From Siphonodentalium dalli (taxonomy: Eukaryota > Mollusca > Scaphopoda > Gadilida > Siphonodentaliidae): a DNA stretch of 64,000 bases. The stretch's first letter is position 1; each line of letters opens with the position of its first letter. The DNA is taken from NCBI GenBank assembly GCA_032622095.1, contig CP136064.1:175724247-175788246 (forward strand), read 5' to 3'. Of this stretch, positions 45,701 through 48,700 are shown piece after piece. A model generated the notes under the pieces. The model made no database searches. It saw only the letters and a list, made by a program, of their open reading frames with translations, and was not told the DNA's origin. Both the position numbers and the translations under genes were made by a program.

Positions 45701-48700
45701 CTAGAATACATGGGTAAGTTAATGCATTGATTCGTCGATACAATACATTACAATAAATACACCGAGGCCCCGTACCACAGCCTCTGCAGGACATGTGCCT
45801 GTATTCGATCACAAGTCCGCCCATACCTACCTATATATACTTACCCAAACGTATACTTTATATGTATATATATGGGTGAAAATCTCAAAATTACCATTTT
45901 TTGGAGCCACAATAGTGAAAAAATAAATTGTCTTCTAAATCAAGTCCATTTACTTTTTTCAAAAGTATAGGCACTATGGACGTTCTGACAATACCTAGCA
46001 GAGCACAAATTCCATTATCATTGCCATGGCAACAGTCCAAGTAATTATAGTGCTGGATTTTATGTCAGTCCTGTTACCAACCTTCAGAGGGCAAAATGTG
46101 GTGATCAAAATCCACATCAAGTGACACAAAATATTGTTATTGATTAACTGCAGTCCTACAAAAGGATATGTAACAGGTTTCTAACAAAATCAAGCCTCAT
46201 ATTCAGTATAATGGACCTTCCAATGCCAATTGGACTGACCATTGTCCAAATTCTCTTATTCAGAATATTGTAGAGACAAAAATATGATTGAAGTTGTGAA
46301 TAATTTCTGTGTAAACACTTTCTTATTGCGGTGTGAATAGCCAGTAATGACCTCAGTTAGATCTATGTTGCACATAAATGAAACATCATTATTATTGGTG
46401 GTAACAGGACTGACACAATGTCAGTCCTGTTACCGCTGTCCAGGAAAACTTCATGACATGAACATAGAGTTGTAAACATGATATGTCATGTGCAGACTGT
46501 CTGCATGTGTATATGTCTGTCTGACTGTTGGGTGTAGACTACAAGATGGTTTGACCAATTGAGCTGAAAGTTTCAAATTTCGGGTGCCGAGGAGGGGGGG
46601 GGGGGGGGGGGGGGGGGTGTTCAGTCCAACGAATTTTATTAGCGAATTGGTGTGCACGTGTGTATGTGTTGTGACATAATGACCTTTAAATATGAGGCCT
46701 CATAATGGCTTGCATTATGGAACAATCATTCAAGAATTTAAATTACTTCGTTGTATTTTGCCTTATCTTAAATTAATTTTGAAGTGTCAGTTTTGGAATT
46801 CACCAAGAATTGTTGCTCAACTGGATGCTGTTGAGCAACAATTATTGGTGAATTCCAAAACTGACATTTGGGTGGCTCAAACGTTAGTGTTCTATTCCAA
46901 GCCTTCTAATATTCCTGTCCCTACTTCTGGGGTCTAATTCCTGGTGATATGATGGTATCAGATGTTATTATATGGTGTTGATCTGAGTATTTGTCTTCAA
47001 TGGTGTCCCGGGCTGCGACTATCGGGTGGAAAGGGGTTTCAGTTGGCATTACCAAATCATCAAGTTGATATACCGGTTTGTCCCATATGGCAACATCTTT
47101 AAATGGCTTTGGTAGCAGAGATTTCATGTAAACACAGCCAACCAATCATCTCTATGTGAATCTCATGAATCTACATAACCCTTGAAATTTCTGTGTATGT
47201 ATACAGGCTCGCACATTTATTTTATCAGTAAAAATGTCACTCAACCCAGATACCCCTATGTCAGTCCTGTTACTTTCTACCCCTATTGGTAACAGGACTG
47301 ACATTAAAAGTAACAGGACTGACAGTAACAGGACTGACATTTTCGGTGGCTTCATGACTCTTAATGACAGAAGTGAAGGAAATCCAGATATAGAACATAC
47401 AATTCTTTGCACCTTTCTACGTATGTTTTCAAACTATAATGGAGTTATAGAATACCTGTCAGTTTTTCCTTGAGAGAATGTGGTAACAGGACTGACACAC
47501 AATTAACATACTCGCCAAAAATAAATGTTCTGTCAACTCAACCTTGAAAATCTTGAGAAGCCAGCAGATATAAAACTTTCAGAGGCAATGACCTCCACTG
47601 CTACTGTTTTCTTGTAGTAACGAGAAAGTATAGTGTTGTTCCATATTGATTGTACTTCTCTTCAAAGTACTTGGTAACAGGACTGACATAAAACTCATTA
47701 CACCAAAACACATACTAGATATGGGAGAAATAACAATTCTTAATTTCAGAAACTAGAGCTCACGGGATAGTTGTGGTTGAAACGTTATGGTAGGAAGCAG
47801 ATAAGAATGAACAATTCCATTAACCTAAAGAGTTCATGGTTGTATTCAAGGGAACCCAGGTTCATTACATTGGGTTTTTGGGGGATAACACTGATAACAA
47901 GATTAAAACCAAGTTCATTTTCATGTTTAATTTAGTTATGAGTTTCTTACGTATGTGGTGTTTCCCTAACCTTTTCATTGAAACAGTTTGTTTTATGGCA
48001 TACAACATCTCGGGGTGTATAAATCATGGATATTGAGCCATTACAAAAAAAATGGTAATTTTGAGATTTTTACCCATATACTGTGTACTGGCATATTACT
48101 ACGGTTGTTGCTTGCTTCTAATTCTAAGTATTATATAACACATATAACATATTCTGGTATAATTATTACAATAATGGGAATCGGCACCTGAATCGGCCGA
48201 TTGTGATCTCAAATAATCGGCAATTGGCGCAAGGCTCTATTTGACAATCGGCTCATCACTAAAATCTCCCATCAAAACCGGAATATTCACCTATGTCATG
48301 GCGTCACAAACCATGGTTAGCAGCAGTGTGTTAGGGCTAAATGTTCTCTCATGGACGTGGTAAACAAATTTACCGTAGTTTCACATGCTAAGAAGTTTTT
48401 ACACGTGTTTCAAGAACACCATACGGGTTTTACGGACAACGTTGTCGTTAAATGTAGTTTGGACTTGGATTCAAAGGAAACGTTTAACGTTGAAAAGGAG
48501 TGTTTTGTTGGCGATATTTTAAACACTTTTAAAGTGAAAATGGTACTAGTAGCATATGTTGGTATAGGATATTTTTGATTGAATTGGCATTGAATATTGT
48601 CTTTTTATTGTACTTTGTGATTTTAAATACAAATAAATACTATGCTATTCTATTTTATGCCTTGTGTCTTGCTGATCTCCTTCCAATATCATAATGAAGC

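Follow-up and report, generated by a model that had tools for sequence, protein, structure and literature searches.

The 64-kb stretch of DNA analysed here (the window) contains a segment of 2.2 kb, at positions 45873-48076, in which nine copies of one 15-bp motif lie between a pair of inverted repeats. The questions raised by this locus are whether the segment is a mobile element, where such an element would begin and end, and what the repeated motif would do within it.

The boundaries came from a first-pass annotation, which had described 30-base terminal inverted repeats (TIRs) with one mismatch, and both inverted-repeat and mismatch scans bore this description out. The left TIR occupies 45873-45902 (plus strand) and reads inward as TGGGTGAAAATC, while the right TIR occupies 48047-48076 (minus strand) and reads inward as TGGGTAAAAATC. 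When a 32-mer starting at 45871 was searched with up to 3 mismatches, the two TIR sites were its only matches in the 64-kb window, against a shuffle mean of 0.00 over 100 shuffles. Directly outside the TIRs are TA dinucleotides (45871-45872 on the left, 48077-48078 on the right) that could be a target duplication, although TATA (45869-45872 and 48077-48080) fits too and the AT-rich flank is ambiguous on both sides. With the TATA counted the TIR match extends to 45869 and 48080 (34 nt); this continuation is palindromic, and so by itself uninformative. Eight end positions were tried with duplications of 1-12 bp, leaving TA, AT, TATA and ATAT as the only options, and a duplication of 2 or 4 bp in such a flank cannot be told from chance. 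A 3-bp duplication is impossible at all eight end positions tried. An 8-bp duplication is likewise impossible, since the flanks permit 2 or 4 bp only.

Neither BLASTN nor the TIR scan found a second copy of the element in the 64-kb window. In the BLASTN comparison with the rest of the window (E 1e-3), runs of G were the sole matches; the element carries 24 consecutive G at 46594-46617. With one copy known, it might be argued that there is no mobile element and that the motif cluster coincides with the inverted repeat by chance, at a single-copy locus. We regard this as very unlikely, because chance would seldom produce a 30-bp inverted repeat, with a single mismatch, so closely enclosing all nine motif copies.

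The motif, GTAACAGGACTGACA, was found in 9 exact copies in the window, all between the TIRs, where 9e-5 would be expected per 64 kb, both strands included, from base composition. Its confinement to the element, as first annotated, held in a search that allowed mismatches, with no further site in the 64-kb window at up to 2 mismatches. At up to 3 mismatches there are 10 matches in the window versus a shuffle mean of 1.43 and a largest shuffle count of 5, the tenth match being at 55132 (3 mismatches) inside a NOL10-like open reading frame (ORF). Within the element there are no sites with 1-4 mismatches; at 5 mismatches there are six, where the rest of the window would predict about 3.8.

From left to right, the copies are located at 46063-46077 (minus), 46401-46415 (plus), 46419-46433 (minus), 47259-47273 (minus), 47289-47303 (plus), 47310-47324 (plus), 47325-47339 (plus), 47483-47497 (plus) and 47674-47688 (plus). 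The second and third copies can form a hairpin around 3 nt, the fourth and fifth are inverted around 15 nt, and the sixth and seventh abut directly; the arrangement of these three pairs, which had been picked out at first reading, was confirmed. Six copies are thus on the plus strand and three on the minus strand, and the split about the element midpoint is three copies on the left and six on the right. Seven of the nine point toward the nearer end (P 0.09).

A scan of the window for exact 15-mers with at least 4 copies within 3 kb, in which low-complexity words were excluded and words close to one another thinned, returned seven groups, of which the motif is the only one found in both orientations. 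The other six, each in one orientation, come from a tandem array at about 40.1-41.5 kb; three of these six have one outlier each near 20 kb. The array itself (40072-41527, minus strand) has a spacing of about 160 bp, with relatives at 20016-20903 and 59994-60501. Its repeat length is within a size range shared by the satellite-like repeats of oyster Helentron elements, as given in the available part of the paper describing them (PMC7492417).

A non-palindromic 15-bp site present nine times would also resemble a homotypic cluster of host-factor sites. The 15-mers would then be sites for a host transcription factor or repressor, and the locus would be a gene-less transposon bearing a dense host regulatory cluster. 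However, the lack of any other site within 2 mismatches in the 64-kb window argues against this, as does the fact that the outermost copies are an inverted pair relative to the ends of the element, and we consider a host-factor array rather unlikely.

Two features are new beyond the first-pass annotation, namely a subterminal inverted repeat of 23 bp, which is perfect, and an internal hairpin of 40 bp, which is nearly so. The subterminal repeat is built on the outermost motif copies, at 46063 (minus) and 47674 (plus), which share 3 + 5 further bases, so that its arms are found at 46058-46080 and 47671-47693. The motif cores of these arms lie 190 bp from the left end and 388 bp from the right end of the element (192 and 390 from the TA). 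When element sites were resampled, an extension to 23 bp had P 0.0008 for a single named pair, and P 0.02 for the best among 36. Summed over all pairs, including copies whose flanks overlap a neighbour, the extension was 60 versus 27 (P 0.011). The subterminal pair is positioned like the recognition sites of other DNA transposons.

The edge of the motif is sharp: all 15 columns are identical in 9/9 copies, while position -1 is G in six and A in three. An exact 15-bp block of this kind with barely alike flanks is what a protein footprint would leave. The flanks of the motif copies are 31% alike, versus 27% at random sites (P 0.04), and since this is slightly more than random some copies may descend from one another. 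The element may also simply be young. No changes were found in 135 motif bases versus 3 in the 140 bases of the TIRs and hairpin arms; judged by these change counts, selection on the motif is not significant (P 0.13), and the exact copies are therefore explicable by the youth of the element alone.

These observations bear on a further possibility, that the element is a TIR transposon whose 15-mers are passive, having spread by local duplication, inversion or repair with no binding role, which would make it an ordinary gene-less transposon. Some sequence shared beyond the core, reaching 23 bp between the outermost copies, speaks for such spread, as do the TTG that precedes three copies (46063, 47289 and 47674) and the two copies placed head to tail, and youth can account for the exact identity. 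However, on either side and across the 9 copies, most flanks look unrelated immediately beyond the 15-bp block, where local duplication usually leaves ragged edges, and the element holds no copies with 1-4 mismatches. We therefore take passive spread to be unlikely but credible.

It was also considered whether each 15-mer could be a tiny insertion with its own target duplication. The copy at 47259 is surrounded by an 8-nt direct repeat (TACCCCTA), as this account would have it. A repeat of 8 nt is seen at 1.7% of random element sites, so that one among nine copies is unremarkable, and seven of the other eight copies show 3-5 nt, the range into which most random sites fall. The long repeat at the eighth, 47310, arises solely from the motif copies next to it. 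We rejected this explanation, which appears extremely unlikely, as the flanking repeats match the random-site range.

The second new feature, the internal hairpin at 46782-46869, has 40-nt arms that are 95% complementary, with 8 nt between them. Folded as RNA, it reaches -61.7 kcal/mol versus a shuffle mean of -23.3 (z -10.9). Past its first three bases the hairpin arm reads TGTCAGT, as in the reversed motif; each end of the hairpin differs from the motif by 5 mismatches, which is about the chance rate, and the likeness may be meaningless. Rfam searches gave nothing at gathering score in the 64-kb window, and ARAGORN found no tRNA in it. At E up to 1, the region 45800-48150 gave 16 Rfam matches, comprising 15 microRNA families and one small RNA (AfaR), all under gathering score (best 44 versus 90). 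Of the microRNA-family matches, 13/15 fall on the 40-nt hairpin, one at 46388-46446 over a motif pair and one at 47241-47322. We read these sub-threshold matches as reflecting hairpin shape alone. Elsewhere in the window, a hairpin larger than that of the element is present at 16305-16474, with 77-nt arms that are 95% complementary and 16 nt between them.

No protein match was obtained in any of the 6/6 reading frames of the element with Pfam and NCBIfam at E up to 1 (stops translated as X), in a scan that had no positive control for a decayed transposase. A copy without a transposase is as expected for a non-autonomous element. A 25-mer from the TIR had 0 matches in a viral contig collection, as did a 20-mer from the hairpin arm and the inverted and direct motif pairs (0 and 0), and in a collection of prokaryote and virus genome contigs there were 0 matches both to a TIR 22-mer and to the inverted motif pair. 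Such empty results tell little about an animal element, given that the collections hold viruses and prokaryotes. Among viral contigs, a 17-base form of the motif matched one (L001), in which there is a single motif, and an 18-base form of the TIR matched another (L002), where the TIR match has 4 mismatches in 23 and one site lies 3 mismatches from the motif. With a single motif in the former and mismatched TIR and motif sites in the latter, both were taken as chance and not as relatives. Among the matches listed for motif and TIR strings in literature text, only a 13-mer appeared, once each in Vibrio cholerae papers, and shorter terminal strings gave no transposon paper by title.

The window is eukaryotic in character, with its NOL10-like ORF, its reverse-transcriptase ORFs and its many repeat families. 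The NOL10-like ORF (54349-56466, plus strand) is an uninterrupted stop-to-stop ORF of 705 codons with NOL10 and NUC153 domains at residues 30-537, and could be either an intronless gene or a retrocopy. Just downstream of it, at 56638-56682, a perfect inverted repeat of 22 nt with a single central base was noticed by eye. Matches to RVT_1 are located at 2370-3485 (minus) and 36162-37256 (minus); in the latter region a stop separates two ORFs, the first of which carries the RVT_1 match. An unnamed interspersed repeat of 1.1 kb is present in two direct copies, at 27008-28071 and 50817-51882, which are 81% identical.

Taken together, the element is real, well bounded and unusual, and is most likely a gene-less TIR transposon with a repeated array of putative binding sites. 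With moderate confidence we favour a young non-autonomous TIR transposon, probably Tc1/mariner-like, in which the 15-mers are putative binding sites for an element-encoded protein. From the sequence we infer that the element is mobile and specific for TA, that a protein binds it and what that protein does. The choice of a Tc1/mariner-like enzyme follows from the TA-compatible flank and, if the host is a bivalve, from the abundance of this group in bivalves, while the roles given to the 15-mers, as sites for an element protein, and to the TIRs, as cutting sites, follow from parallels with CACTA and P elements. Under this model the element would be moved in trans, by cut and paste, by a TA-inserting transposase of the IS630/Tc1/mariner type, and the 30-bp ends would be where it cuts. 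The nine 15-bp sites would be bound by a DNA-binding protein specific to the element, which might be the transposase or an accessory protein distinct from it. The subterminal pair, facing outward, could help to bring the two ends together, and the inner motif clusters might raise occupancy or allow the protein to repress the element. A TIR element with binding sites is also what the first-pass annotation had proposed, as a candidate for something undescribed; the ends, the flank, the lack of coding sequence, the confined motif and the 23-bp repeat favour the proposal, but its general design is already known from CACTA elements.

Among known systems, IS630/Tc1/mariner elements in general have TA duplications, according to the portion of the source available (PMC10045372), and Tc/mariner is listed among the richest superfamilies in bivalves in the available part of a second paper (PMC10294476). 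TA fits the flank of the element, as do AT, TATA and ATAT. To our knowledge, an internal motif in nine copies is not typical of IS630/Tc1/mariner elements. The repeated sites of the Sleeping Beauty type lie within the terminal repeats.

Other classes can be compared by duplication length. The available text of the first of these sources gives none or 1-4 bp for the PHIS group (ISL2EU and relatives) and includes Ginger among the classes with 4-bp target duplications (PMC10045372). Both ISL2EU-type (PHIS) elements and 4-bp-duplication classes such as Ginger fit the flanks as well. ISL2EU elements have a 2-bp target duplication and termini characteristic of the family, and by duplication length alone a 2-bp AT duplication with GGGT ends, or TA, would fit. 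PIF/Harbinger elements have a 3-bp TWA target duplication, in contrast to the element, where no 3-bp duplication exists at the eight end positions tried. The Repbase rule, in the part of its description available, requires the first 11 bp to match a named family whose duplication length is also the same (PMC4455052).

P elements, as described in the available part of a paper on them, have 31-bp TIRs and, apart from the internal sites that the transposase itself binds, 11-bp subterminal inverted repeats; target duplications are 8 bp, and a zebrafish relative carries 12-bp subterminal repeats behind 400-bp spacers (PMC7776569). The element resembles them in having TIRs of similar length together with subterminal inverted repeats. 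However, their 8-bp duplication is impossible at the element, and an array of nine sites is not described for P elements in that part of the paper.

In CACTA elements, a subterminal motif of 12 to 20 bp occurs in both orientations and unequally between the ends, and TNPA, an element-encoded protein separate from the transposase, recognises the subterminal repeats of maize Spm/En, as set out in the available text of a report on soybean elements (PMC2613891). In the soybean CACTA element Tgmt* the motif copies number 4 and 24, are direct and inverted and can form stem-loops, and the target duplication is 3 bp; in that text, protein binding to its subterminal repeats is given as not determined (PMC2613891). 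Insofar as the partial text describes them, the likeness to the element lies in short TIRs and a repeated internal motif that is found in both orientations, is unequal between the sides and can form stem-loops. The element differs in that its ends are TGGGT...ACCCA and not CACTA, in that the 3-bp duplication of Tgmt* is impossible at its flanks, and in that its motif is exact in 9/9 copies and extends to the middle of the element. As the termini and target duplication do not fit, we place the element neither with CACTA nor with P elements. A more specific proposal, which we judge unlikely, is that it represents an animal lineage inserting at TA with CACTA-like two-part recognition, in which the ends would serve the transposase and the exact 15-bp array a separate element-encoded protein. 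If the array is a binding platform, two-part recognition by ends and a separate repeated site would not be limited to CACTA elements, and both the protein and the autonomous partner could readily be sought by means of the 15-mer.
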